Shown here one piece after another: positions 8,563 through 30,402 of a DNA stretch of 32,207 nt. The position numbers and the translations under genes were made by a program. Source of the DNA: Actinomycetota bacterium. Its GTDB lineage: Bacteria; Actinomycetota; Actinomycetes; Nanopelagicales; Nanopelagicaceae. The stretch spans positions 1 to 32,207 of the forward strand of contig CANBVO010000007.1 in NCBI GenBank assembly GCA_947372915.1. The letters run 5' to 3'. Within the stretch, counting starts at the first letter, position 1, and each line of letters opens with the position of its first letter. Below the pieces are notes generated by a model. That model was not told the origin of the DNA. It did no database searches and was given only the letters and a program-made list of their open reading frames with translations.

Positions 8563-9825
8563 TTATAGAGCGAGCCAGAATGGATTTTCAAAGCGCTTAA
8601 CAAAGGCAGCCAGCCATTGGGCGGCTAGCGCGCCATCCACTGCACGATGATCGACTGACATCGTGAAGTTAATAACGGAGCGAACGACAATTTGGCCATC
8701 GAGAACAACTGGCTTCTGCTTTGCCGCGCCCACTGCCAAAATTGCAGATTGCGGTGGATTGAGAATTGCAGAGAATTCATCAGTTCCGTACATACCCAGA
8801 TTAGTAACCGAGAATGTTCCACCCTCAATTTCATTTTGTTTCAGACCACCTGTGCGTGCCCGATCAATGAGTTCGTTAGCAGCCGCATTTAATTGAATAA
8901 GCGACATGTGATTAACTCCGCGGATTACTGGAGTAATTAACCCCTTATCTGTTGCTACCGCAATTGCAACGTCAACGTCGCTAAATTGACGAAGTGCGGT
9001 ATCTGTCCAGATGACATTGGCAGCAGGAACATCTGCGAAAGCAGCAGCAACCGTTTTTACAATGAGGTCAGTAACTGAAACCTTCTTTGGTGCCCACTCA
9101 TTAAAGCTAGTGCGGAATTTCAGCATCTCATCGGCAATTACTGGAGCGTTGAGATAAAAGTGCGGAACCGTTGTTTTGCTCTCAGTTAAGCGACGAGCAA
9201 TTGCTTTGCGCATTCCGGAGTGCGGTATTTCAATGAAGGTACCCGCTGGAATTACCGGAGCAGAAACTGCAGGTGTGCGAGGCGATCCTCCACTAGCAAT
9301 CGCTGCCTGAACGTCGCGGCGAACAATGCGACCATCGGGACCAGTGCCTTGAATAAAAGTTGGATCAATTCCATTCTCTTTAGCTAAACGTCGAGCTAAT
9401 GGGCTTGCAAAAAGTCGTCCGCCAGTATTAGCCGGTGCAGCTGCAACAACTGGTGCGGGCGCAGCAACAACAGGCGCCGCTGGAGGTGGAGTTTGGGCAG
9501 TACCGACAGGTGCCGGTGCAGCAGCCGGCGCAGGAATATCTGCGCCAGCTTCTGTCAGTAACTTATCGATCTCTGCTTGGCCTTCGCCCGCAGCGAGCAA
9601 GATTGCAATGGGCGCACCAACTTGAACATGGGCACCATTTTGAGCCAAGTACTTTCCAAGAATTCCGTCGCTTTCGGCAGGTACTTCGACCAGAGCCTTC
9701 TCTGTCTCCACTTCAGCCATTGGCTGACCAACTGTGAAAGAAGCGCCTTCAGCAATTAACCATTTCGCAATGATTGCCTCGGTCGCATTAGCCAGAACTT
9801 CTGGCATTCTCATGATTGCGGCCAT
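8563..9825 (-). CDS. Dihydrolipoamide acyltransferase (E2) of a 2-oxo-acid dehydrogenase complex
   Basis: E2 carries the acyl group on lipoate and transfers it to CoA. Domain order: a lipoyl domain (residues 1-75, lipoyl-lysine K43 in ETEKA); an Ala/Pro-rich flexible linker; a peripheral-subunit-binding domain near FASPLARRLAKENGI; a second linker; then the catalytic domain with HRAVDG (His393, Asp397). The ATG at 9825 lies 1 bp after the E1 stop, so the track start at 9876, inside E1, is rejected. The lipoyl domain is single. No E3 (dihydrolipoamide dehydrogenase) is present in the window. Acetoin, pyruvate and branched-chain 2-oxo acids are all possible substrates. Confidence 0.92.
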   Translation of the reverse strand: MAAIMRMPEVLANATEAIIAKWLIAEGASFTVGQPMAEVETEKALVEVPAESDGILGKYLAQNGAHVQVGAPIAILLAAGEGQAEIDKLLTEAGADIPAPAAAPAPVGTAQTPPPAAPVVAAPAPVVAAAPANTGGRLFASPLARRLAKENGIDPTFIQGTGPDGRIVRRDVQAAIASGGSPRTPAVSAPVIPAGTFIEIPHSGMRKAIARRLTESKTTVPHFYLNAPVIADEMLKFRTSFNEWAPKKVSVTDLIVKTVAAAFADVPAANVIWTDTALRQFSDVDVAIAVATDKGLITPVIRGVNHMSLIQLNAAANELIDRARTGGLKQNEIEGGTFSVTNLGMYGTDEFSAILNPPQSAILAVGAAKQKPVVLDGQIVVRSVINFTMSVDHRAVDGALAAQWLAAFVKRFENPFWLAL

Positions 9826-9826
9826 G

Positions 9827-12016
9827 TTAACGAGCACCGCCAAATCCAGCTTGTACTCGGCTGATGCCCGCAACAATCTCTTCTACGCCGGCATATGCTG
9901 CGCGCTCGAGCACCTTAGAAATGCTTGGCGAGGCTTCTCCGCCAGAAACGCGTTGTACTGGTTGATCGAGCCAATCAAAGTAACGACGATGAATCTCATC
10001 AGCAAGCCAACCACCGTATGAAGTACCAAGTGCGCCTTGTTCAACAATCAGAACATTATTGGTCTTCTTGATAGAGGCCTCAATAGTTGTCCAGTCAATC
10101 GATGCACGATCGAGCCAACGTAAATCAATAACCTCAGCGTCAATACCAGTTTGTTCGACAGCGGTAAGTGAATGCTTCACCATAGAAAGATAGGTTAGAA
10201 CAGTTGCATCTTTGCCTTCACGTCGAATATTCGCTTTACCAAATGGGATTTGATATCCGAAATCATTTTCCGGTACATCTCCCAAATCTTGGTAGAGATC
10301 AACGTGCTCAAGGACAAGAACTGGATCTTGAAGGGCGAGCGCTGCATTCATGAGACCGATGTATTCCGCAGGCGTGGATGCGGCAACGATGCGCCAACCA
10401 GGGCTAGTCGCAAAGATTCCTGCAGGATCCATTAAGTGTTGCGAACCATAACCACTGCCGATTGCGACCTTTGTACGGAGAACAAGTGGAACTGGATTCT
10501 GTCCACCAAACATGTGGCGCGCTTTTCCGATCTGGTTAAAAACTTGGTCTGCAGCTACCCACATAAAGTCTGGATACATAAATTCAACAATCGGACGGTA
10601 ACGGCGATCGAGTGCCATTCCACCACCGAGTCCAGCAAATGCATTTTCGCTGATAGGTGTACCTAATACGCGATCGGGATATTTCTTAGAAAGTCCCTTT
10701 GTCGCGCCATTTGTTCCACCATTGAGTCGATGGATATCTTCACCAAGAACAACAACCCGGTTATCACTCTCCATTGCAGCATCAATCACACCAGCAACAG
10801 CATCGACAAACTTCATATTTGTCTTAGGGCCAGAATCTTTCAGTGGCTCTAAGGTGCGTGCGCCATTGAGTTCAGAGGTATCTCCGCGGACGCCGACGTT
10901 AACGAAAGATGCATCAGGCCAGAGTTCTGGCTTAATTCTCCGCTTTCCAGGTGCATCTGGGTTGGCTTCAAGAAGTGCCGCCGCGGCTAAGCGATTAGCA
11001 GCTAGTGCTTGCTCGCGAACCGAGTCCACACCAGCTTGATCCATAAGTCCGAGTGCAATCATTTCGTTCGCAACGCGAAGCAGTGGATCGCGCTCTCGCC
11101 ATTGTGCTTCTTCTTCCTTCGTGCGGTAACCAAATGCGCTGCCAGGGAATGGACCATTCTGGTGGAAGTAGCGATATACATCCGCTTCTATAACGACTGG
11201 ACCTTTTCCTGAACGCATATGAGATTCTGCTTCCTTCATTGCAAGGTGAACGGCAAGCGGATCCATGCCATCTACTTTCCATGATGGAATTCCAAAGCCA
11301 AGTGCACGGCCAGAGAGTCGAGGTTCTGCTGTCACCTCAGAGACGTGAGTAGAAACGGCATACAAGTTATTTTCAATGAAGAAAGCAAGTGGCAATTTCC
11401 AGGCAGCTGCAAGGTTCATAGTTTCTAGAACTGAACCAATATTGACTGCACCATCTCCGAAGTAAGAAACGGTGATGTTCTCAGTTAGCGCCTGGCGTTG
11501 TGCCCAGGCATTACCGGCTGCGAGCGGAACTCCGCCACCAACAATTGCATTTGTTCCTAATGCGCCGGCTTCGAAATATTGAAGGTGCATCGATCCGCCA
11601 CGACCGCTGCAATAACCTTGCGCTAGTCCAAGAATTTCGGCAAGAGTCTTCTGTAATACTTCTTGCAGAGCCGGCGTCACTAAGGCATTGACATCTAATT
11701 TGCCAGCCGAGACATGGTTAATCACCTTAGCGAGAAATTGATGGTGCCCGCGGTGGGAACCGTTAATTGCATCCTGAGTTCCTAGCGAGATGATGGAGCC
11801 AACGGCTCCGCCTTCTTGACCAATCGAAGAGTGTGCTGGTCCGTGGACAAGTCCTTCTCCGGCAAGTTCGAGTACAACTTCTTCAAAGGCGCGAATGAGG
11901 TGTAACTGCCCCAACATATTTTCGAGCAACTGCGGACTGGCATTTCGCCAGTCTTCTGCCGTTGTCCGAAGTTCGATCCAAGGAGCGCGTGCTTCTAAGG
12001 GGGCGCGTTCGGTCAT
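9827..12016 (-). CDS. Fused alpha-beta E1 component of a 2-oxo-acid dehydrogenase
   Basis: This thiamine-diphosphate enzyme performs the decarboxylation step. Residues about 30-330 are the alpha part: SHRGHH at 87-92, GRGGSMH near 138-144, and the ThDP motif GDGAVN (187-192) ending in ENN. Residues about 395-729 are the beta part, with GEDIHRLNGG and the PISE catalytic Glu. In most bacteria these are two genes, so the 729-aa protein is a natural alpha-beta fusion. The start is supported by GAGGAG upstream of the ATG at 12016. It is translationally coupled to E2. The upstream region carries a candidate GntR operator between possible -35 (TTGTGA) and -10 (TTTACT) boxes. Confidence 0.92.
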   Translation of the reverse strand: MTERAPLEARAPWIELRTTAEDWRNASPQLLENMLGQLHLIRAFEEVVLELAGEGLVHGPAHSSIGQEGGAVGSIISLGTQDAINGSHRGHHQFLAKVINHVSAGKLDVNALVTPALQEVLQKTLAEILGLAQGYCSGRGGSMHLQYFEAGALGTNAIVGGGVPLAAGNAWAQRQALTENITVSYFGDGAVNIGSVLETMNLAAAWKLPLAFFIENNLYAVSTHVSEVTAEPRLSGRALGFGIPSWKVDGMDPLAVHLAMKEAESHMRSGKGPVVIEADVYRYFHQNGPFPGSAFGYRTKEEEAQWRERDPLLRVANEMIALGLMDQAGVDSVREQALAANRLAAAALLEANPDAPGKRRIKPELWPDASFVNVGVRGDTSELNGARTLEPLKDSGPKTNMKFVDAVAGVIDAAMESDNRVVVLGEDIHRLNGGTNGATKGLSKKYPDRVLGTPISENAFAGLGGGMALDRRYRPIVEFMYPDFMWVAADQVFNQIGKARHMFGGQNPVPLVLRTKVAIGSGYGSQHLMDPAGIFATSPGWRIVAASTPAEYIGLMNAALALQDPVLVLEHVDLYQDLGDVPENDFGYQIPFGKANIRREGKDATVLTYLSMVKHSLTAVEQTGIDAEVIDLRWLDRASIDWTTIEASIKKTNNVLIVEQGALGTSYGGWLADEIHRRYFDWLDQPVQRVSGGEASPSISKVLERAAYAGVEEIVAGISRVQAGFGGAR

Positions 12017-12070
12017 CTCTATCTCCTCGGAGTCGGTTCAAAATTAAGTGTGAGAGAACAGTAAACCTAG

Positions 12071-12082
12071 ATTGCATCCAAT
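12071..12082. promoter_or_regulatory. Candidate GntR operator, copy 1 (E1-proximal)
   Basis: ATTG-CATC-CAAT, preceded by CTAG. It is nearly identical to the second copy 62 bp away (about six helical turns). It lies between plausible -35 and -10 boxes of the E1-E2 operon, so binding would block transcription. Assignment to the neighbouring GntR protein is inference. Confidence 0.6.
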
Positions 12083-12132
12083 CACAAGGTTTTTACCCCA
12101 ATATCTTCCATTTAAAGGCGAATTGAGGCTAG

Positions 12133-12144
12133 ATTGTATCCAAT
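12133..12144. promoter_or_regulatory. Candidate GntR operator, copy 2 (VOC/gntR-proximal)
   Basis: ATTG-TATC-CAAT, preceded by CTAG as in copy 1. The 16-bp match has one mismatch. It sits about 40 bp upstream of the VOC start, consistent with autoregulation of the VOC-gntR operon. Confidence 0.6.
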
Positions 12145-12184
12145 ACGCTCTAAAGTCGAGCTTTTACCAGAAGAGGAGTCCTTG

Positions 12185-12712
12185 ATGGCCGGAATTCCAG
12201 GCTTACGTGGCACCGAACATATTGGCTTTACTGTTCCAGACCTGGACCAGGCAGAGCGCTTCTTTGTCGATGTCATCGGCTGCGAACGAATTTATGCCTT
12301 GGGGCCTTTCATTAAGGATGATAACTGGCTGGCCGATCACCTCGGAGTTCATCCTCGAACTGTGATGCGAGAGCTTCGATTCTTTCGGTGCAAATTCGGC
12401 CCTAACTTTGAAATCTTTCAGTACGAATCCGCTGATGGCCAAGCACCACAGCCTCGCAATTCAGATATCGGTGGCCATCACTTAGCTTTTTACGTCGATG
12501 ATTTCGATACCGCGCTCGATTATTTAAAGAGCAAGGGCGTAGAAATTATGGCCGAGCCAACTTTAAGTAAGAGTCACAGCGAAGGTCAAAAGTGGGTTTA
12601 CTTCCGAAGTCCATGGGGAATGCAATTTGAACTTGTCTCCTTCCCCAATGGCAAAGCATATGAAGCAACTGCCACAACTAAACTCTGGCACCCGGCAGAT
12701 CCGAGCAACTAA
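12185..12712 (+). CDS. VOC-superfamily (glyoxalase/extradiol dioxygenase fold) protein
   Basis: A 175-aa protein with two beta-alpha-beta-beta-beta modules. Candidate metal ligands are His12 (EHIGF), Glu76 (NFEIFQ), His98/99 (GHHLAFYV) and Glu149 (QFELVSF), the usual 2-His/2-Glu pattern. The ATG at 12185 follows an AGGAG ribosome site; the track start at 12134 (TTG) lies inside the operator and is rejected. Members act as lyases, epimerases, isomerases or dioxygenases, so the reaction is open. It overlaps the GntR gene by one base, which suggests that the regulator senses this enzyme's substrate or product. Confidence 0.85.
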   Translation: MAGIPGLRGTEHIGFTVPDLDQAERFFVDVIGCERIYALGPFIKDDNWLADHLGVHPRTVMRELRFFRCKFGPNFEIFQYESADGQAPQPRNSDIGGHHLAFYVDDFDTALDYLKSKGVEIMAEPTLSKSHSEGQKWVYFRSPWGMQFELVSFPNGKAYEATATTKLWHPADPSN

Positions 12713-13371
12713 TGTCAATTATCGAAAGCGATCTTGCACTCAGCCAACAAATTGCCAATTCTCTTAAAGAAGAGATTCTCTCTGGAAAATTCCCACCCGG
12801 TGTTCGAATCCGACAAGAAGATATTGCAGAACAATTTGGCGCATCGCGCTCGCCGGTTCGAGAAGCGTTACGAATTCTGGAAGCTGAAGGGCTGATTAAT
12901 TTAGTCGCTCACACCGGTGCCTGGATCTCGCATTTAAGTTTGGCCGAGTGTGAAGAGATGTATCAACTTCGCGAACGAGTTGAACCCTTACTTCTTCGAT
13001 TAAGCATCGCGCATATTTCCGAAGAAACTATTTTGCATTTGCAAGAATTAGCTAGTGAGATGGAAGCGACGAATGATGTAGAAAAGTTTCTTAAGTTAGA
13101 TCGAGAATTTCATCTCCTCTCATACTCTGGTGCAGAGACTGTGCTGGTCGGAGACATGGTTAACCGGCTATGGAACACAACGCAACATTATCGCCGCGCA
13201 TATTCTCAGATGATGGCCGCAAGTTCTTTCAAGCCCGCACATTATGAGCACCATTTACTTTTATCTGCATTGAAGAAGCGGGATGCAGATGATGCCGAGC
13301 GGATTCTTTATGGACACATCCGGCGTACTAGGCTCGAATTAGCCCAGCACCCGGATGTCTTTAATTCTTAA
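12712..13371 (+). CDS. GntR-family transcriptional regulator with FCD ligand domain
   Basis: Residues about 8-75 form a winged helix (GVRIRQEDIAEQFGASRSPVREALRILEAEGL, split here across the recognition helix). Residues about 85-215 are the all-helical FCD domain. Metal/acid-binding residues of the FCD type appear in LDREFH, HYEHH and GHIRRTR. FCD regulators usually sense organic acids. TAATG coupling to the VOC gene and the paired sites in the divergent promoter make it the likely repressor of both the E1-E2 and VOC-gntR operons. Confidence 0.9.
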   Translation: MSIIESDLALSQQIANSLKEEILSGKFPPGVRIRQEDIAEQFGASRSPVREALRILEAEGLINLVAHTGAWISHLSLAECEEMYQLRERVEPLLLRLSIAHISEETILHLQELASEMEATNDVEKFLKLDREFHLLSYSGAETVLVGDMVNRLWNTTQHYRRAYSQMMAASSFKPAHYEHHLLLSALKKRDADDAERILYGHIRRTRLELAQHPDVFNS

Positions 13372-13372
13372 A

Positions 13373-14443
13373 TTAAGCGCGAGGCGGAATGATTTTCTCT
13401 GCGCGTAATTGATCGAAGAGTTCAAAGAATGAATCTGGAGTTACCTGTACTTCACGGAACCCAGCCTTGCGGCTCTTACCCATGTCAGCAAAAGTTTCTA
13501 CTTGTCGACCGAGGTCAGCATCTGAGTGCCACCATGATGCAATTTCAGAGGCTTTGTGATCGACCAAATTATATTTAGCAACAATCTTCGCCCATTGCTC
13601 ATCTGCACCAGACATCCGTGGCTCAAGTGGTGAGATTTCTGCAGGATAACCGGGATCGGTTACACCAAAGTAATCTGCGAGAAGTCGCCAGAGTTGGCGC
13701 CAACGAAATACATCGCCGTTAACAGTGTTGAAGGCCTCGTTCTTGCCGGCAGGATCAGTTGCAGACCAGACTGCATGACGTGCGAGCAAGCGCGCATCAG
13801 TTACGTCGGTAACGCCGTTGTATTGCTCTTTTGAACCAGGGAAAATAAATGGCGCACCAGTCTCTTTGCAGATAGATGCATATACGGCGAGCGTGACGCC
13901 CATGTTCATTGCATTACCCAACGCCCAACCAATCATGGTGTGAGGGCGATGTACTGACCAAGAGAAACCTTGTTCCTTAGCAGCTTTGAACAGAATATCT
14001 TCTTGGGTGTAATAGAAGTTATCAATCGGAAGGCGAGCTTGGCTCTCCTTGAATGGAGTCTCCATTGGAGTTGCTGCATATGACTCGAATGGTCCGAGGT
14101 AGTGCTTAAGACCTGTTACTAAAACTGTGTGCTCAAGAGTGCGCTTCTGAGCAAAAGCGTCGAGCGTGTTCTGCAACATCGCGCCATTAACAGCGATGTT
14201 CTCCTTCTCGGTATTTTGACGAGACCAGGTACAGAAGAAGAGATGAGTAACAGGAAGATCGGCAACAGCTGCCTTCACGCTCGCTGGATCAAGAACATCG
14301 CCATACACATGCTTTACTCCAGGAACGATAATTCCCGGTTTGCGGGAGAGCCCGTAGACCGTGAAGCCTTTCTTCTGCAGTTCTTGCGCGATGTTGTTAC
14401 CGGTTATTCCAGTAACTCCGATAACCAGGGCGTTCTTACTCAT
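13373..14443 (-). CDS. PRISE-like atypical short-chain dehydrogenase/reductase
   Basis: A 356-aa extended SDR. It has an N-terminal nucleotide-binding loop GVTGITGNN (about 9-17) and SRKPG after beta-2, which favours NADPH. The active-site segments TGLKHYLGP and FYYTQED correspond to the Lys and Tyr of the progesterone 5-beta-reductase/iridoid synthase (PRISE) group, which reduce activated C=C bonds of enones. The bacterial substrate is unknown. It converges on gntR with 1 bp between the stops, and is divergent from the SDR operon across a region with an inverted repeat. No strong Shine-Dalgarno is seen. Confidence 0.82.
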   Translation of the reverse strand: MSKNALVIGVTGITGNNIAQELQKKGFTVYGLSRKPGIIVPGVKHVYGDVLDPASVKAAVADLPVTHLFFCTWSRQNTEKENIAVNGAMLQNTLDAFAQKRTLEHTVLVTGLKHYLGPFESYAATPMETPFKESQARLPIDNFYYTQEDILFKAAKEQGFSWSVHRPHTMIGWALGNAMNMGVTLAVYASICKETGAPFIFPGSKEQYNGVTDVTDARLLARHAVWSATDPAGKNEAFNTVNGDVFRWRQLWRLLADYFGVTDPGYPAEISPLEPRMSGADEQWAKIVAKYNLVDHKASEIASWWHSDADLGRQVETFADMGKSRKAGFREVQVTPDSFFELFDQLRAEKIIPPRA

Positions 14444-14483
14444 AATCCATTTCCATTCTGTGGCTCAGTTCAGGGTCTCGATG

Positions 14484-14503
14484 TTATGTGAGACTACACA
14501 TAA
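14484..14503. promoter_or_regulatory. Inverted repeat between the PRISE-like gene and the SDR operon
   Basis: TTATGTG-AGACTA-CACATAA is a perfect 7-bp inverted repeat with a 6-bp spacer, of operator size. It lies about 40 bp upstream of the PRISE-like start. A possible promoter for the SDR operon follows (TTGACG at 14537, 17-bp spacer, weak CAAACT). Confidence 0.45.
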
Positions 14504-14607
14504 AGACAAGATGAGGGGTCAGGCGTTCTCTGACACTTGACGCTTTGGGCTCACAGTGCCAAACTTTTGGGAGTACCGAACCGACATAAGTGGACATAGG
14601 AGTTCAT

Positions 14608-15390
14608 ATGGGACGCGTTTCTGGAAAATCAATCCTTATCACTGGAGCCGGATCTGGCATCGGGGAAGGTTTTGCACGAATCTTCGGCGCCGAGGGCGCA
14701 AAGGTTGGCGTCTGCGATCTCAATACCGCCGCAGCCGAACGAGTAGTGGCTGTCATCAATGAGAACGGCGGCCAGGCAATCGCTATCACCGCAGATGTTT
14801 CTAAGCGCGATCAGGTGCGCACTGGTTTTAAGAAGTTTGTCGACTGGGCCGGTTCTTTCGATGTCATCTTTAATAACGCTGGTTTTAACAAGCCAATGCA
14901 TCTCATGGAAGTAACTGAAGAGAATTGGAATGCAATCATGAGCGTCAACGGTCTTGGCGTTCTTATCTGCACCCAAGAAGCAGGTAAGTACATGATTGCT
15001 CAGAAGAGCGGCAAGATTATTAATACCGCTTCAATCGCTGGCCGCCAGGGTTATCCAGCTTTCGCTCCTTACTGCGCCAGCAAGTTTGCAGTAAACGCGC
15101 TTACTCAAGCAACAGCTCGCGGTTTAGCAGAGCACAACATCACCTGTAATTCGTTTGCTCCTGGCGTTGTAGACACACCACTGTGGATTGATCTTGATCG
15201 CGATCTCATGGAGATGGGAATGTCAGAACGTCCCGGCCAAGCAACTGAAGAATTCTCTGCCGGTATTTTGCGTGGACGTGCTGCCACCCCAGAAGATCTT
15301 CAGGGAATGGCGCTCTTCTTGGCTTCACAAGATTCTGACTATATGACCGGCCAGACCATCATGATTGATGGCGGAATGGTTCTTATTTAA
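14608..15390 (+). CDS. Classical SDR oxidoreductase, polyol/butanediol dehydrogenase-like
   Basis: A 260-aa NAD(P)-dependent enzyme with cofactor loop TGAGSGIG (12-19), NNAG (89-92), and catalytic Ser142, Tyr155 and Lys159 (YCASK). An Asp after beta-2 (CDLNT, about 37) favours NAD. The C-terminal GQTIMIDGG is standard. The overall pattern resembles sorbitol/galactitol or meso-butanediol dehydrogenases, but similar SDRs act on many alcohols. The ATG at 14608 has AGGAG upstream; the track start at 14590 lacks one. First gene of a packed dehydrogenase operon. Confidence 0.88.
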   Translation: MGRVSGKSILITGAGSGIGEGFARIFGAEGAKVGVCDLNTAAAERVVAVINENGGQAIAITADVSKRDQVRTGFKKFVDWAGSFDVIFNNAGFNKPMHLMEVTEENWNAIMSVNGLGVLICTQEAGKYMIAQKSGKIINTASIAGRQGYPAFAPYCASKFAVNALTQATARGLAEHNITCNSFAPGVVDTPLWIDLDRDLMEMGMSERPGQATEEFSAGILRGRAATPEDLQGMALFLASQDSDYMTGQTIMIDGGMVLI

Positions 15391-18387: not shown

Positions 18388-18417
18388 TTGTTAACGCCGT
18401 CTGCGGCTATGTACAGT
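18388..18417 (+). promoter_or_regulatory. Candidate promoter for the ABC transporter genes
   Basis: TTGTTA, 18-bp spacer, TACAGT, ending about 30 bp before the permease ATG. It would let the transporter be expressed independently of the upstream dehydrogenase operon. Confidence 0.4.
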
Positions 18418-18446
18418 GGCACTTTACAGAGAAGTGAAAGGTGACC

Positions 18447-19457
18447 ATGAGTACTGCGCCCGTTCGTGAGTTGAAGCGTTCAGCACGCTTGCAGATTTCA
18501 CGCGGAATGAAGACTGTACTTGGTGCCACCATTCTTCTTTATATTGCAAGTGTCTTCATAGCACCGACAAGCGTCAGCAAGGTCGCCCAAATGGGCATGC
18601 TCCCCTTTGCCGCTTGCTTAGCAATTATTGGCCTTGGACAAACCCTTGTCATTCAACAAGGCGGTATCGATCTCTCGGTCGCAGGCGCTGTCTCCTTAAC
18701 AGTTGTAATTGTTACTTGGGGGCCAGATCGACACGATGATCGCTTACTTCCTGCAGTTGCTGCAGCTTTCGGAGCGGCGATAATCACCGGTTTGATTAAC
18801 GGATTTCTTATTACGAAAACGAAACTCAACTCTATTGTTGCCACTCTTGGCGTAAACGCACTTTTGTATGGCGTAATGATGGCTCTCTCCGGAGGTAGTC
18901 CGCGCCGAACAACTGATCGCCTCTCGCATATTACGAACGATAAAATTCTTGGTTTGCCCCACTCTATATATTTTGGAGTTTTCTTCACCATAGTCGTCAC
19001 TATTTTATTAAAGCGCACCGTTATAGGCCGACGATTTGAAGCTGTGGGCGCTAATCCACGTGCGGCGTATGCAACTGGCCTCAAAGTTGTGCGCTACCAA
19101 TTCGGTGCCTATGTCTCTGCACAGATTTTGTATTGTGCTGCCGGCGTAATTCTTGGCGGTGTTATCTCTCAACCGACTGCATATCAAGGTGATGATTACG
19201 TACTCCCTTCTGTAGCAATCGTTGTGCTTGGTGGAACTTCTCTTCTCGGCGGACGCGGTTTTCCTGCAGCATCGGCTCTTGCCGCACTCTTTATTAAGCA
19301 GCTAGATATGTTTGTTCTTTCGCTCGGCGTTCCCTATGGCGTGCGCACGATTGTGATCTCGGTTTCGCTCATGCTCGGAATTGCCCTCTATGCAGTGAAT
19401 TGGAAATCTACAAATTTCTCATTCAAGAAACGGGATAGGCAACTGCAACCTATCTGA
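18447..19457 (+). CDS. CUT2-type sugar ABC transporter permease
   Basis: A 336-aa membrane protein of the RbsC/XylH family with about eight to ten hydrophobic helices. It carries the family motif GGIDLSVAG near residue 72 and a GGTSLLGGRG segment near the C-terminus. The ATG at 18447 has AAAGGTG upstream, better placed than for the GTG at 18441. A periplasm-side sugar-binding protein and an ATPase follow. A second permease of the same family is fused to that ATPase, so the channel may be a heterodimer of the two. Confidence 0.9.
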   Translation: MSTAPVRELKRSARLQISRGMKTVLGATILLYIASVFIAPTSVSKVAQMGMLPFAACLAIIGLGQTLVIQQGGIDLSVAGAVSLTVVIVTWGPDRHDDRLLPAVAAAFGAAIITGLINGFLITKTKLNSIVATLGVNALLYGVMMALSGGSPRRTTDRLSHITNDKILGLPHSIYFGVFFTIVVTILLKRTVIGRRFEAVGANPRAAYATGLKVVRYQFGAYVSAQILYCAAGVILGGVISQPTAYQGDDYVLPSVAIVVLGGTSLLGGRGFPAASALAALFIKQLDMFVLSLGVPYGVRTIVISVSLMLGIALYAVNWKSTNFSFKKRDRQLQPI

Positions 19458-24348: not shown

Positions 24349-24885
24349 TTAGTTGAAGAGTGGCTTAAGTGCACTAAGTGCAGGGCGTACCTTGAGGTAC
24401 TCCTGAGCTGCTGATTCGTGAACCTCTTTGTCGTAGTAATCCCATTGAATGAGTTCGAGCGCAAGACCATCTGGATCACTGAAGTAGCACCAGCGCCAGC
24501 CAGCAAGCGGACCTTCATCAACGACGTTGACGTCGGTGTAGAACTTAACTCCTTTGGATTCAAGTTCTGCCTTAGTGGCTCGAATATCGTCGACGTGGAA
24601 GCAGACGTGAGCCGCTCCAAGGTGATTATTAGGCACTGGCTTTCCATTGGTATCAGCGCGACCTGCATACTCGATAAGTTCAAAGGTGGTCTTATCATCG
24701 ACCCAGAGCGAGACCTGACGAAGCTTGGCGTTTGGAACGTTGACGCCCTTCTCTAGTTCTGGACCTTCAAACCAACCAGTGGGTTCATTTTGAAACTTGA
24801 AGCCCAAAATGTCGTGATAAAAATAGATGGAGCGGTCCAGGTCGCTACACACTAAGCCGACGTGGTGGACGTAGTTCATCTTCAT
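24349..24885 (-). CDS. VOC-superfamily (glyoxalase/epimerase-like) protein
   Basis: A 178-aa two-module VOC protein. Candidate metal ligands are His8 (HHVGLV), Glu69/72 (TFELIEY), His93/97 (HVCFHVDD) and Glu144 (LALELIQ). The pattern resembles methylmalonyl-CoA-epimerase/glyoxalase-like members more than ring-cleaving dioxygenases, but the substrate is not known. AGGGGA stands 8 bp before the ATG at 24885. It is divergent from the XRE-cupin regulator with a shared promoter, so it is probably the regulator's direct target. Its sequence differs clearly from the VOC protein at 12.2 kb. Confidence 0.87.
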   Translation of the reverse strand: MKMNYVHHVGLVCSDLDRSIYFYHDILGFKFQNEPTGWFEGPELEKGVNVPNAKLRQVSLWVDDKTTFELIEYAGRADTNGKPVPNNHLGAAHVCFHVDDIRATKAELESKGVKFYTDVNVVDEGPLAGWRWCYFSDPDGLALELIQWDYYDKEVHESAAQEYLKVRPALSALKPLFN

Positions 24886-24926
24886 ATATAAATCCCCTGT
24901 TCAGTATTGGCAAACAACTGGCGACG

Positions 24927-24978
24927 AATATACGCCCAGAAATTGGGGGTGTACAGCCCCTCTAAACACTTTTATACT
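24927..24978. promoter_or_regulatory. Symmetric divergent promoter sharing one palindromic -35 box
   Basis: The palindrome TGTACA (24950-24955) can act as -35 in both directions. On the plus strand it is followed by a 17-bp spacer and TATACT; on the minus strand by a 17-bp spacer and TATATT. It is the centre of a larger inverted repeat, GGGG-g-TGTACA-g-CCCC, which would suit a dimeric regulator, presumably the XRE-cupin protein. Binding would shut off both genes. Confidence 0.65.
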
Positions 24979-25078
24979 CGGCAGGTGCCAATAAATGGCC
25001 CTACTCCACGGTAGGTTTACGGCATATTCAGAGCGCCGTGCTCTTACTACCTACCAGAAGAGACCAGAAGAGAAGGTT

Positions 25079-25735
25079 ATGACTGATCCGATTGCCTACC
25101 TTGGACCTCGATTAAAAGAGATCCGAATGAAGACCGGACTCTCGCTTCGCGAGATTGCTCGCCAATTGGATGTTTCACCTTCATTTGTTTCGCAGATTGA
25201 AAACGGAAAGTCCCAACCATCTGTTGCCACCCTGTACGCACTTGCAAAACTTTTAAGTGTTCCTGTCGACGTTCTCTTTGAGAGCGCAGGCGACCCGGTC
25301 GCAGTTCCAACAAAACCTTATGATCTTGAAGTTAATCGAAATAATTTTGATCATCCAACAGATGCCTGGGATAGCTCAAGAGCACGTATCTCAGCGGTAA
25401 ATCCTAATAATCGCAGTGTTATTACGATGGACTCCGGCGTTACTTGGGAACGTCTTGCTGCGACATCAGAAGAGTCGGTCAACTTTATGGAGATCGTTTA
25501 CGAACCTGGCGCTGAAACAAATAAATCTGGCGAAATGATTTTTCATGATGGTTTTGAATATGGGTATGCCCTTGCTGGCGAACTTGAAGTCACCATCGGC
25601 GATCTCGTCCTTCAACTTTCAGCTGGCCATTCCATGGGATTTGATTCCTCCATCCCACACCGTTTTAGAAATACCGGCGGTACGCAGTTCCGTGGTATTT
25701 GGTTTGTCCATGGCTGCAATGTTGCCCACTCCTAA
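25079..25735 (+). CDS. XRE-family regulator with C-terminal cupin domain
   Basis: A 218-aa protein with an HTH_3 domain at about 10-66 (LKEIRMKTGLSLREIARQ; SFVSQIENGKSQPS) and a cupin_2 sensor at about 140-215 (EPGAETNKSG; SAGHSMGFDSSIPHRF). This architecture is common in regulators of small-molecule catabolism. The ATG at 25079 gives the family-typical N-terminus; the track start at 24995 would add an unconserved 28-residue leader. It is divergent from a VOC gene and sits upstream of the M24/EboE operon, whose promoter also has an operator-like inverted repeat. Confidence 0.9.
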   Translation: MTDPIAYLGPRLKEIRMKTGLSLREIARQLDVSPSFVSQIENGKSQPSVATLYALAKLLSVPVDVLFESAGDPVAVPTKPYDLEVNRNNFDHPTDAWDSSRARISAVNPNNRSVITMDSGVTWERLAATSEESVNFMEIVYEPGAETNKSGEMIFHDGFEYGYALAGELEVTIGDLVLQLSAGHSMGFDSSIPHRFRNTGGTQFRGIWFVHGCNVAHS

Positions 25736-25790
25736 CCAACGCTCACCCCGTTTTTTGCCCTCAGGGAGCGATTAGGGCGCTTAAAATACC

Positions 25791-25819
25791 TTGACACCCC
25801 TGTTTTGCTGGTGTTAACT
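25791..25819 (+). promoter_or_regulatory. Promoter of the M24-EboE operon with overlapping inverted repeat
   Basis: TTGACA (25791), 17-bp spacer, TTAACT (25814). The same bases form an inverted repeat TTGACACC-N11-GGTGTTAA, matching at 7 of 8 positions. The reverse strand contains GGGGTGT, also present in the VOC/XRE palindrome, hinting at one regulator for both. Confidence 0.7.
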
Positions 25820-25872
25820 AGGAGAGAACATCGAGCCAATTCAGGGCTAGATCTATCCCACAGGAGAGAACA

Positions 25873-27252
25873 ATGGCTATCCCAACGTACGGAACCAATG
25901 CAGTCGATTGGGAAAACCGAGTTGATTACGATCGCTTACGCACGCAGCGTTTAGCGCGTCTTAAAGCGGAGTTAGAGAATTCCAGCTTAGGCGCTCTCCT
26001 TACCTTTGATTTCAACAATATTCGCTACATGACCTCTACTCACATTGGTACATGGGCTATCGACAAGATGATTCGTTTCTCTATCTTGCCTCGCAGCGGA
26101 GAACCTGTCTTGTGGGATTTTGGTTCAGCTGCAAAGCACCACACTCTTCAAACTCCTTGGCTCGATAAGGCACATGCTGATGCAAGTGCAAATGGCCACG
26201 CTCCCCATCACGATGCCGGACCACTCTTGGGATCGCGCGCCGGAATTTCTACTCTTCGCGGCGCAATTCCACCAAGCGCTGGCCAAGCTGAAAAAGTTGC
26301 CGACAAGATTTACGAAGTTCTTAAGATTTATGGCTTAGAGAAAGAGCCACTCGGTATCGATATTGTCGAACCGCCAGTTCTCTTTGCACTGCAAGCTAAG
26401 GGAATTCAAGTTGTCGATGGCCAACAAATATTTCTTGCGGCTCGTCGCATTAAGACCAAAGATGAAATTACGCTACTTACTACTGCTGCATCTATGGTGG
26501 ATAAGGCGTACGAAGATTTGTATGCATTCCTTCGTCCTGGTGTTCGCGAGAACGAAGCAGTTGGCCTGGTCGCAAAGACTCTTTACGATTTAGGTTCCGA
26601 GCTAGTAGAAGGCGTTAATGCAATTTCTGGAGAGCGCTGCTCCCCACACCCACACGTTTTTTCAGATCGCATTATTCGTCCGGGCGATCCGGCCTTCTTT
26701 GACATTCTCCACTCATTCAATGGATATCGCACCTGCTACTACCGCACCTTCGCAGTTGGATCAGCTTCACCCGCGCAGCGCGATGCCTACACAATTTGCC
26801 GTGAATATATGGATAAGGCGATTGCACTTGTTAAGCCAGGTGCCACAACTGCAGATATCGTTGCGGTCTGGCCTAAGGCAGAAGAGTTTGGCTTTGCCAA
26901 CGAAGAGGCTGCGTTTGCTTTGCAATATGGCCACGGAGTTGGTCTCTCTATCTGGGAGCGTCCAATATTTAGCCGCATGATCTCCTTTGATCACCCTGAA
27001 ACCCTTGAAGAAGGCATGGTTTTTGCACTCGAAACCTATTGGCCAGCTAAAGATGGTTGGGGCGCTGCCCGCATTGAGGAAGAAGTTGTTGTTACTGCAA
27101 CTGGCTGTGAAGTAATTACTAAATTCCCGGCTGAAGAGTTATTGGTTGCAGGTCAGCGCTACTTCACCACCGGCGGATATCTCAACACAACACGTGATTC
27201 CCAATCACACCTCAACACTTCAACCTTTAACCACATCGGCAACGGTAAGTAA
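25873..27252 (+). CDS. M24-family (Xaa-Pro peptidase/creatinase/DddP fold) protein with substituted metal ligand
   Basis: A 459-aa protein with a creatinase-like N-terminal domain (to about 180) and a pita-bread M24 domain. Of the five classic metal ligands it keeps Asp277 (FFDILH), His354 (GHGVGL), Glu387 (ALETYW) and Glu402/403. The second Asp, expected 11 residues after the first, is Cys288 (GYRTCYYRT). The N-terminal region (LTFDFNNIRYMT) resembles the DddP/prolidase-like group. Activity could be a peptidase, another C-N or C-S hydrolase/lyase, or metal-independent like creatinase. AGGAGAG precedes the ATG at 25873. It is followed 2 bp later by the EboE-like gene. Confidence 0.85.
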   Translation: MAIPTYGTNAVDWENRVDYDRLRTQRLARLKAELENSSLGALLTFDFNNIRYMTSTHIGTWAIDKMIRFSILPRSGEPVLWDFGSAAKHHTLQTPWLDKAHADASANGHAPHHDAGPLLGSRAGISTLRGAIPPSAGQAEKVADKIYEVLKIYGLEKEPLGIDIVEPPVLFALQAKGIQVVDGQQIFLAARRIKTKDEITLLTTAASMVDKAYEDLYAFLRPGVRENEAVGLVAKTLYDLGSELVEGVNAISGERCSPHPHVFSDRIIRPGDPAFFDILHSFNGYRTCYYRTFAVGSASPAQRDAYTICREYMDKAIALVKPGATTADIVAVWPKAEEFGFANEEAAFALQYGHGVGLSIWERPIFSRMISFDHPETLEEGMVFALETYWPAKDGWGAARIEEEVVVTATGCEVITKFPAEELLVAGQRYFTTGGYLNTTRDSQSHLNTSTFNHIGNGK

Positions 27253-27254
27253 GG

Positions 27255-28475
27255 GTGGATCTCGGCAGCGGTTACGGCCACCTCACTTATTCCACTCTCG
27301 TTCACCCGGGAGATACCTGGTCTGATATGAAGAACTCGCTGGTCACTTACGTGCCAGAAGTGAAGAAGCGTTTTAGTCCAAGCGCTCCTATGGGCGTTTC
27401 ACTGCGCCTTGCTAATGCATCTGTTGAAGAACTTCTAGCAAAGCCAGAAGAGCGCCAATGGCTCAAGAAATTCTTACTTGATAACCAACTCTATGTATTC
27501 ACCGTTAACGCTTTTCCTTATGGGCCATTCAAGGGCGAGATCGTTAAAGAGAAGGTGTACGAACCTGATTGGACGACCGAAGCTCGCACCCAATACACAA
27601 TGCATATCGCAGATATCTTGGCTGAAGTTACTGATCAATCAGTAGAACCGACTATTCAAACCGCGCCATTGGCATATCGCCCTAAGGCGACCACTCCAGA
27701 ATTCATCGCATCATTTGATGAGAATATTTACCGAGTTATTGCCCACCTCATGAACCTCGAGAAGAAGACCGGCCATCGCGTAAAACTTGCGGTAGAACCC
27801 GAGCCGTACTGCTTTCTAGAGAATATTCCTGAAACTGTTCAGTGGTTTCAAGAGAAGGTGTATTCACTTGCTGCGGCAGAGAAGATTGCCAAGTACTCCG
27901 GCCAACCATTGTCCGAAGTATTTGGCGCGGTCCGTCGCTACCTTGGCGTTGTTCTCGATATCTGCCATCAATCCGTCGCCTTTGAAAGCATCGCCGATGA
28001 CATCGACCAACTCTCTCGTGCAGGTATTCCAATCTTTAAGCTGCAGGAAGCTGCTGCTTTACGTGTAGATAACGTGACTCCAGAGATTGTTGAAGAACTT
28101 AAGAAGTACACCGGCACTATCTATCTCTCACAGACCACTGAACTCCGCAATGGTGTCATCACTCGCTTCCTCAACCTAGAAGATGCAATTGCTGCGTGGG
28201 AACTAGACCCTGGTCCACGCGAATGGCGTACCCACTTCCATGTGCCGGTATTCCTCAAAGATCTTGGGCCATTCCAGACAACTCGTTCAGGCATTGATGA
28301 CGCGCTGCGCGTTCACGCCCGCACGCCACTCTCTAACCATCTAGAGATTGAGACTTACACCTGGGATGTATTGCCAGAACACTTAAAGACTGGCGATATT
28401 ACTGAATACGTCGTTCGCGAACTTGAATATGTCCGCGACGAACTATTTCGCCAAGTTGATGCGTTAAAGAAATAG
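27255..28475 (+). CDS. EboE-like TIM-barrel (xylose isomerase-fold) protein
   Basis: A 406-aa protein whose order of motifs matches EboE of the ebo metabolite-traffic clusters, as recalled: GYGHLTYSTLVHPGDTW at the N-terminus, LYVFTVNAFPYG, EPDW, AVEPEP (179-183), LDICH (234-238) and WRTHFHVP. These give probable metal ligands of a sugar-phosphate isomerase/AP-endonuclease-2 type barrel. Here no eboA, eboB, eboC, eboD or eboF is seen. The GTG start at 27255 is 2 bp after the M24 stop. Function of EboE itself is unproven; isomerase or epimerase chemistry is suggested by fold. Confidence 0.8.
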   Translation: MDLGSGYGHLTYSTLVHPGDTWSDMKNSLVTYVPEVKKRFSPSAPMGVSLRLANASVEELLAKPEERQWLKKFLLDNQLYVFTVNAFPYGPFKGEIVKEKVYEPDWTTEARTQYTMHIADILAEVTDQSVEPTIQTAPLAYRPKATTPEFIASFDENIYRVIAHLMNLEKKTGHRVKLAVEPEPYCFLENIPETVQWFQEKVYSLAAAEKIAKYSGQPLSEVFGAVRRYLGVVLDICHQSVAFESIADDIDQLSRAGIPIFKLQEAAALRVDNVTPEIVEELKKYTGTIYLSQTTELRNGVITRFLNLEDAIAAWELDPGPREWRTHFHVPVFLKDLGPFQTTRSGIDDALRVHARTPLSNHLEIETYTWDVLPEHLKTGDITEYVVRELEYVRDELFRQVDALKK

Positions 28476-28496
28476 TTTTACTTTAACGCAGTTTTT
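28460..28496 (+). terminator. Terminator hairpin spanning both convergent stop codons
   Basis: TGCGTTAAAG, 11-nt loop, CTTTAACGCA followed by GTTTTT. The stem uses the last codons of the EboE-like gene and of pckG, and the loop contains both stops. The T-run favours termination of the plus-strand operon. Confidence 0.8.
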
Positions 28497-30271
28497 AGCA
28501 ACTCAAATTGCTGCTCAAGCTCGGCAGGCAATTTGTTACCAATCTTGGTAAACCACTCTTGAATCAGCGGTAATTCTGCGCGCCATTCCTCGACATTTAC
28601 TGCCGATACTTCTTTCATATCTTCAGCAGAGGTATCGAGTCCCTTGGTATCGATTGCGCCTGGTGCTGGCACAAAACCAATAGGAGTGGGAACAGATGTA
28701 TTAGCGCCTTCGATCTGTTCGATGGCCCATTTGATGACACGTGAGTTCTCGCCGAATCCTGGCCACAAGAACTTGCCCGTGCTGCTACGACGGAACCAGT
28801 TCACGTAGAAAATCTTTGGCAGTGCAGCTGGGTCATGTTTCTTACCCATCGCTAGCCAGTGCTTGAAGTAATCACCTACGTGATAACCAATGAAGGGAAG
28901 CATCGCCATTGGATCACGACGAACTACGCCGACTTCACCAGTTGCTGCAGCAGTTGTTTCAGAGGAGAGAGTTGCGCCCATAAAGACGCCGTGTTCCCAA
29001 TCGCGTGATTGAACAACCAATGGAATTGTGGTCTTGCGACGTCCACCAAAGAAGATGGCAGAGATCGGAACGCCAGCAGGGTCTTCCCACTCTGGAGCGA
29101 TGATCGGACATTGCGCAGCTGGTGTGCAGAATCGAGAGTTGGGATGTGAGGATAATTCACCGTTTTCAGGCGTCCAATCGCGATTTTTCCAGTCAGTTAA
29201 ATGTGCGGGAGGCACCTCGGTCATACCTTCCCACCAAACATTACCATCGTCAGTCAGCGCAACATTGGTAAACAATGAATTGCCGTGTTCGATAGTGCGC
29301 ATTGCATTCGCGTTAGTGCCCCAGCCAGTACCTGGCGCTACGCCAAAGAAGCCGTATTCAGGATTTACTGCATAGAGTCGACCATCTTCACCAAAACGCA
29401 TCCAAGCAATGTCATCACCAAGTGTCTCTACCTTCCAACCATCCAAAGTTGGCTCGAGCATTGCTAGGTTAGTTTTGCCACATGCTGATGGGAATGCAGC
29501 CGCAAGATAATGTGCCTTACCGGATGGTGGCGTTACTTTAAGAATCAACATATGTTCAGCTAGCCAACCCTCATCACGGCCCATCACAGATGCGATGCGC
29601 AATGAATAACACTTCTTGCCAAGTAGCGCGTTACCACCGTAGCCAGAACCAAAGGACCAGATCATTCGCTCCTCTGGAAATTGCGTAATGTATTTAGTCT
29701 CGTTGCATGGCCACTTCACATCTTTTTCGCCAGCATAGAGCGGTGCTCCTACGGAGTGCATTGCTTTTACATAGTGACGATCAGAGCCCATTGCATCTAA
29801 AACAGAAGTTCCCATTCGCGTCATGATGTGCATAGATGCAACGACATAAGCGCTATCCGTTAGTTGAACACCGAACATCGGATCCTTGGCGGTGAGTGGA
29901 CCCATGCAGAATGGAATGACATACAAAGTGCGACCGCGCATACTTCCGCGATACAAATCAGTCATCAAAGACTTCATCTCGGACGGATCCATCCAGTTAT
30001 TTGTTGGACCAGCATCAGCTTCATTGACAGAGCAGATGTAGGTGCGATCCTCAACGCGAGCCACATCGGTGGGATCAGATGCGCACCAGAATGAATTTGG
30101 CTTCTTCTTTAGGCGGACCAGAGTTCCGGCATCAACGAGCGCAGAAGTTATTTGGTCCCATTCAGCAGTTGTTCCCGTGCACCAGTAAATATCGTCTGGT
30201 TGAGTTAAGTTGGCGACCTGGGTTACCCATTCAATTAAATCTGCATGAGTGGTGGGTGGGGTAGTGGCCAT
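28478..30271 (-). CDS. pckG: Phosphoenolpyruvate carboxykinase (GTP)
   Basis: This cytosolic enzyme interconverts oxaloacetate + GTP and PEP + CO2. It is the gluconeogenic entry step and, in actinobacteria, an anaplerotic enzyme as well. The 597-aa length and the GTP-class motifs are clear: kinase-1a loop [12 protein letters not shown], the kinase-2 region [18 protein letters not shown], and [12 protein letters not shown] for nucleotide binding. The ATG at 30271 has AAAGGAG upstream. The track start at 30385 would add 38 unconserved residues and run towards the ffs promoter, so it is rejected. Confidence 0.96.
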
Positions 30272-30402
30272 AAATGACTCCTTTGAGGGTAGCAACTCTG
30301 CTTTCGGTAGTGTAAACCAGCACTGAACACGTGAGCCATAGGTGGCGCGAGTGGTTTTGCCCACGCCCGCACTGACGGCCCGCACGCCTAAGATTGGCCC
30401 TA

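Follow-up and report, generated by a model that had tools for sequence, protein, structure and literature searches.

A predicted divergent promoter pair sharing one −35 hexamer within a candidate XRE-cupin operator of an actinobacterial catabolic island

Can a single hexamer serve two promoters that face away from each other, and how would the two genes behind them then be controlled? The question is raised by a stretch of 32,207 nucleotides (hereafter the window) from a member of the Nanopelagicaceae (Actinomycetota), in which the original prediction had placed mirror-image promoters between a VOC gene and an XRE-cupin gene.

The predicted promoter pair and its conservation

The VOC (glyoxalase-fold) gene was located on the reverse strand at 24349–24885 (Pfam PF00903, E 1.5e-14), and the XRE-cupin regulator gene on the forward strand at 25079–25735 (HTH_3, PF01381, 4.7e-16; Cupin_2, PF07883, 1.6e-12). 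The regulator combines an N-terminal Cro/C1-type HTH (PF01381, residues 12–66) and a C-terminal cupin (PF07883, residues 140–209) in one protein, the layout that defines the XRE-cupin family, and both domains exceeded the Pfam cut-offs. Its start codon is most probably at 25079 rather than at the first in-frame ATG (24995), because the conserved N-terminus MTDPIAYLG begins there and is preceded by AGAAGAGAAGG. Just upstream of this codon, positions 25053–25072 form a perfect tandem 10-bp repeat, ACCAGAAGAG. Of the 296 same-family genomes, 22 had the gene; the species collection had it at 60 loci, two of which matched only weakly over the HTH. The HTH segment SQIENGKSQPS was nearly invariant, partly because the search for loci used peptides from that segment.

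The hexamer TGTACA (24950–24955) is the putative shared −35 element. Direct reading confirmed a 17-bp spacing on each side. On the forward strand, the hexamer is followed by TATACT (24973–24978), the putative −10 box for XRE-cupin; on the reverse strand, it is followed by TATATT (24927–24932, AATATA on the forward strand), the putative −10 box of the VOC promoter according to the sigma-70 consensus scan and the relatives. TGTACA matched the −35 consensus TTGACA at four of six positions and is surrounded by a palindrome, GGGGGTGTACAGCCCC (24945–24960), with one mismatched pair. The scan of 24700–25900 for the sigma-70 consensus returned exactly these two promoters, with 9/12 matches each, and shuffles of this stretch gave an expectation of 1.2 ± 1.2 promoter-like sites. 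The predicted −10 boxes thus point outward at sigma-70 spacing from overlapping candidate −35 elements, with the predicted VOC and XRE starts ~65 bp apart. None of 100 dinucleotide-shuffled windows contained the combined 52-bp pattern, and a search of the 1.3-Mb genome that tolerated one mismatch still found it only once. There was one genome occurrence of GGGGNTGTACANCCCC at zero mismatches; its single match in the window was exact, and shuffles gave a mean of 0.53 matches with three mismatches allowed.

Conservation of the 52-bp arrangement was checked in 15 loci, window included, in which the VOC gene is divergent and the promoter region could be aligned; down-weighting of near-duplicates reduced these to 12. 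Loci without a divergent VOC gene (L042, L049, L051, and L052) formed the comparison set, and the ungapped alignment was anchored on TGTACA. On the VOC strand, TANNNT was found 17 bp from TGTACA in 10 of the 12 weighted loci and 18 bp away in the other two, and at any other offset in at most one of the 12. Counted by locus, the VOC-side box at 17 or 18 bp was present in 15/15 divergent loci versus 0/4 nondivergent loci. It occurred as TATATT, TAGAGT, TAAAGT, TAGTCT, TATTCT, TATTGT, TATCGT, TAGCCT, and TAGGCT, and such variability of the central three bases is the pattern expected of a real −10 box. On the XRE side, the 17-bp spacing of the −10 box held for 12 of the 16 weighted loci (.A.A.T test). 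The presence of the VOC-side box in divergent loci only, together with the XRE-side spacing, indicated that the shared −35 geometry is, at the level of sequence, real and under selection.

Mean conservation was 1.86 bits for TGTACA and 1.75 bits for TAAACA, the neighboring half-site described below, and 0.22–0.36 bits for the outer flanks. The GGGG...CCCC palindrome, in which the hexamer had been placed, is present in the window but did not hold as a functional unit, for the CCCC arm is lost in relatives and the GGGG arm is partly kept.

Candidate operators and the catabolic island

TGTACA is also the left half of a 19-bp sequence, TGTACA-N7-TAAACA, which extends toward XRE only, its right half being 13 bp from the left. 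The candidate operator has the shape of a 19-bp imperfect palindrome, TGTWNA-N7-TNAACA. The putative operator Op2 (TGTACA-GCCCCTC-TAAACA, 24950–24968, forward strand) covers the XRE promoter from the −35 into the spacer. Op1 (TGTTCA-GTATTGG-CAAACA, TGTTCAGTATTGGCAAACA, 24898–24916) lies between the predicted VOC start site and the start codon, and Op3 (TGTTAA-CTAGGAG-AGAACA, TGTTAACTAGGAGAGAACA, 25812–25830) lies between a TTGACA at 25791 and the start of an M24 gene. Op3 was kept in every same-family locus in which M24 follows XRE. Wherever Op1 and Op2 both scored, they were 51–53 bp apart, roughly five turns of the helix, which might allow cooperative binding or a small loop. The idea that a single dimer controls both genes equally found no support, since Op2 is asymmetric, with TAAACA on the XRE side only, and VOC has a second putative operator of its own in Op1. 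Another inverted repeat, TATTGGCA/TGCCAATA (24905–24912 and 24986–24993), was rejected; its left arm is inside Op1 and its right arm is lost in relatives.

A matrix trained without the window detected five sites above shuffle level in the 32 kb, at 30311, 25812, 18410, 24950, and 24898, all in intergenic or upstream positions. Besides Op1, Op2, and Op3, these comprised TGTACAGTGGCACTTTACA (18410–18428), upstream of a sugar-ABC permease gene (18441–19457), and TGTAAACCAGCACTGAACA (30311–30329), 40 bp upstream of the PEPCK start codon (30271, reverse strand). The operator pattern was first noticed in the tested loci, which makes the motif tests partly circular, and in the window Op3 does not differ from training sequences of relatives; thus, only a matrix built from distant Actinomycetota alone was fairly independent. 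With it, the sites at 24898, 25812, 30311, and 18410 ranked first to fourth in this order, and Op2 (24950) was only sixth in the window. Two loose forms were enriched in the window, which represents 2.5% of the assembly: 4/7 genome matches of TGTWNAN8RAACA and 3/6 genome places of TGTWNAN7TNWACA fell inside it. A weak operator-like site, TGTTATGTGAGACTACACA (14482–14500), was seen between the divergent genes 13373–14443 and 14590–15390, within shuffle range.

In other genera, the homologous island carried the motif just upstream of XRE, M24, EboE, E1, ABC or MDR genes. It recurred in Streptomyces (TGTTCAATGAGAGCGAACA at XRE and TGTTCAGTGACACTTGACA at M24), Cryobacterium (TGTTCAATGATACTTAACA), Nonomuraea, Galbitalea, and others. 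Op1 and Op2, as putative palindromic operators, are conserved and, as is usual in the XRE-cupin family, adjoin the regulator's own gene. In line with the original prediction, the regulator is likely to be the XRE-cupin protein.

The M24 metallopeptidase-family gene (25873–27252, forward strand; PF00557, E 3.6e-40) is a conserved neighbor and a presumed member of the regulon. It is probably in one operon with the EboE-like TIM-barrel gene (27255–28475, forward strand; NF035939, 398.9 bits, cut-off 250), and EboE in other genera has its own operator. The PEPCK gene (28478–30271, reverse strand) was found in 11/16 XRE-positive genomes and in 0/14 XRE-negative genomes examined, so that it seems to travel together with the catabolic island. 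An operator-like site was upstream of the gene in 8 of the 11 genomes with this PEPCK, one site being degenerate. The same island includes a GntR (FadR-like) gene (12712–13371). Positions 8563–13371 comprise fused E1 alpha-beta and E2 dehydrogenase genes, a second VOC gene, and the GntR gene, a unit conserved with window-type XRE across Actinomycetota. For the substrate of the island, NCBIfam and PDB matches gave family-level names only.

Proposed regulation, alternatives, and known systems

Our best reading is that the XRE-cupin protein would be a local autorepressor of the catabolic island, with its own candidate operator overlapping the shared −35. Two back-to-back promoters of sigma-70 type, VOC leftward and XRE-cupin rightward, would use the common self-complementary −35 TGTACA, and an XRE-cupin dimer would bind the 19-bp imperfect palindromes. 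Since the halves of Op2 are TGTACA and the TAAACA inside the XRE promoter spacer, the bound regulator would block its own promoter directly and hide the VOC −35. Op1, which closely follows the predicted VOC start site, would be a second block on VOC; VOC is likely under the repression of two dimers, XRE under that of a single dimer. Through the further operator copies, the protein would repress M24-EboE, the sugar-ABC transporter, and PEPCK, and its cupin domain would sense a metabolite of the imported compound and release the repressor. In the derepressed state, the shared −35 would be usable by one polymerase at a time. We infer such mutual exclusion of polymerases at the divergent pair, which had also been proposed originally, from the conserved shared −35 with its two outward −10 boxes. 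We consider this explanation as a whole (back-to-back promoters sharing a −35, XRE-cupin repression via 19-bp operators, and release by an inducer) to be probable. A bolder version, in which TGTACA is the −35 both ways as well as the repressor half-site, and this three-way exclusive switch was evolved and kept by a genome-reduced lineage, is offered tentatively, as a possibility that falls a little short of an even bet. If true, the repressor, the left-going polymerase, and the right-going polymerase compete for the same six bases.

With just 4/6 positions agreeing with the −35 consensus, TGTACA could be conserved for its operator function alone. It would then be merely an operator half-site, the VOC promoter would have no real −35 or would have an extended −10 (GCGTANNNT), and the 17 bp would be a by-product of operator-to-promoter geometry. 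The almost equal conservation of TAAACA agrees with this, as does the conserved CGC beside the VOC −10, which could compensate for a weak −35. We nevertheless find it rather unlikely, in that 17–18 bp is the optimal −35/−10 spacing, every one of the 15 divergent loci keeps it, and it is gone without the VOC gene. It is scarcely believable that the palindrome and two AT-rich hexamers came together by chance with no common function. Single hexamer matches are common, and about one promoter-like site was expected in the scanned stretch, but the conservation and spacing in relatives refute a chance arrangement, and the whole pattern had zero shuffle matches and was unique in the genome.

Other readings concern the regulator. 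The GntR protein (12712–13371) could bind some of the sites; it is conserved in many islands, and its gene is directly upstream of XRE in L042, L049, and L051. That GntR or another regulator binds them, with the XRE-cupin gene merely a target, is improbable, as the Streptomyces loci L083–L090 have kept the motif at both XRE and M24, their 12-kb stretch yielded no GntR homologue, and XRE-cupin proteins typically bind beside their own gene (PMC7901475). We give equally little credence to a toggle, in which the XRE-cupin protein activates one promoter from the −35-overlapping site and represses the other. Some activators do bind where this operator lies, over a poor −35, and RcoLS20, of the XRE family, acts as activator and as repressor at divergent promoters that overlap (PMC4207663); however, all P. 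aeruginosa XRE-cupin factors with a determined regulon are inhibitors (PMC7901475). Moreover, Op1 follows the predicted VOC start and Op2 spans the XRE −35 and the spacer before its −10, both of which are predicted repressor positions.

With repression by the XRE-cupin protein as the preferred reading, the locus appears to be a compact, conserved version of a familiar type of gene switch. Overlapping divergent promoters with one operator are classical, e.g., in the E. coli biotin operon. No direct precedent for promoters described as sharing one −35 was found in the open-access literature.

The P. aeruginosa XRE-cupin factors with determined regulons are local inhibitors acting at palindromes in core promoters, usually beside their own gene (PMC7901475). 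Pseudomonas PauR, PsdR, and ErfA share with the present regulator the HTH_3 and Cupin_2 domains, a gene adjoining catabolic and transport targets, and palindromic core-promoter sites, including beside the regulator's own gene (PMC7901475), the binding sites here being putative. In contrast to them, the candidate operator here is TGTWNA-N7-TNAACA, the presumed targets are more numerous than for most, and the operator overlaps a predicted −35 common to two promoters. E. coli PuuR, with the same domain layout, gave the best NCBIfam match (NF007408), but the score of 69.3 bits was below the cut-off of 211, and the regulator is therefore not PuuR; no polyamine gene was recognized among the neighbors examined.

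The Pr/Pc promoters of pLS20 with RcoLS20 resemble the window in having an XRE-family regulator, two operator regions, and control of its own and an overlapping divergent promoter (PMC4207663). There, the promoters are superimposed, the −10 of one being proposed as the −35 of the other, and looping was shown (PMC4207663), whereas the promoters here are predicted to lie back-to-back with one −35. The bidirectional promoters of Warman and colleagues (PMC10268837, PMC12825309) likewise have a symmetric core element that allows starts in either direction, one at a time. They share a symmetric −10 and start 7–25 bp apart; here the −35 would be shared, the −10 boxes are apart (24927–24932 and 24973–24978), and the predicted starts are separated by the ~65 bp given above.

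No published study of this actinobacterial XRE-cupin regulator was found. The analysis provides a testable operator, TGTWNA-N7-TNAACA, and a candidate regulon for this widespread regulator, with the practical scope of a single catabolic island. The locus also appears to be a natural case in which a shared −35 is held by selection and the surrounding bases drift, and a comparison of loci that have the divergent VOC gene with loci that lack it offers a built-in control for the role of each half of the region.

Variants of the arrangement

L038 carried TGTAAA instead of TGTACA, and its XRE −10 was unclear. In L041-type loci, the right half-site was degraded to TAAATA. An overlapping site, TGTGAAGTGTGACTGTACA, was observed ~58 to 27 bp upstream of XRE in L041 (also in L053 and L075) and extends toward VOC; the operator side may be flipped in these loci. 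At 1183–1201 of L048, there was a near-perfect XRE-promoter operator, TGTACAGTAGGGCTGTACA, with TGTACA in both halves.

No shared −35 was found in the distant VOC-divergent loci (Microbacteriaceae and others) that were read for it, and their operator was mostly beside the VOC start. The shared −35 arrangement thus looks like a trait of the small-genome actinobacterial family of the window, built on an older operator beside VOC, and it may have originated through genome compaction. In the Microbacteriaceae-type loci L055, L057, L058, L060, L064, L067, and L070, a block resembling an extended −10, TGTGTATATT, was kept upstream of XRE, and the operator was at the opposite end of the intergenic region.
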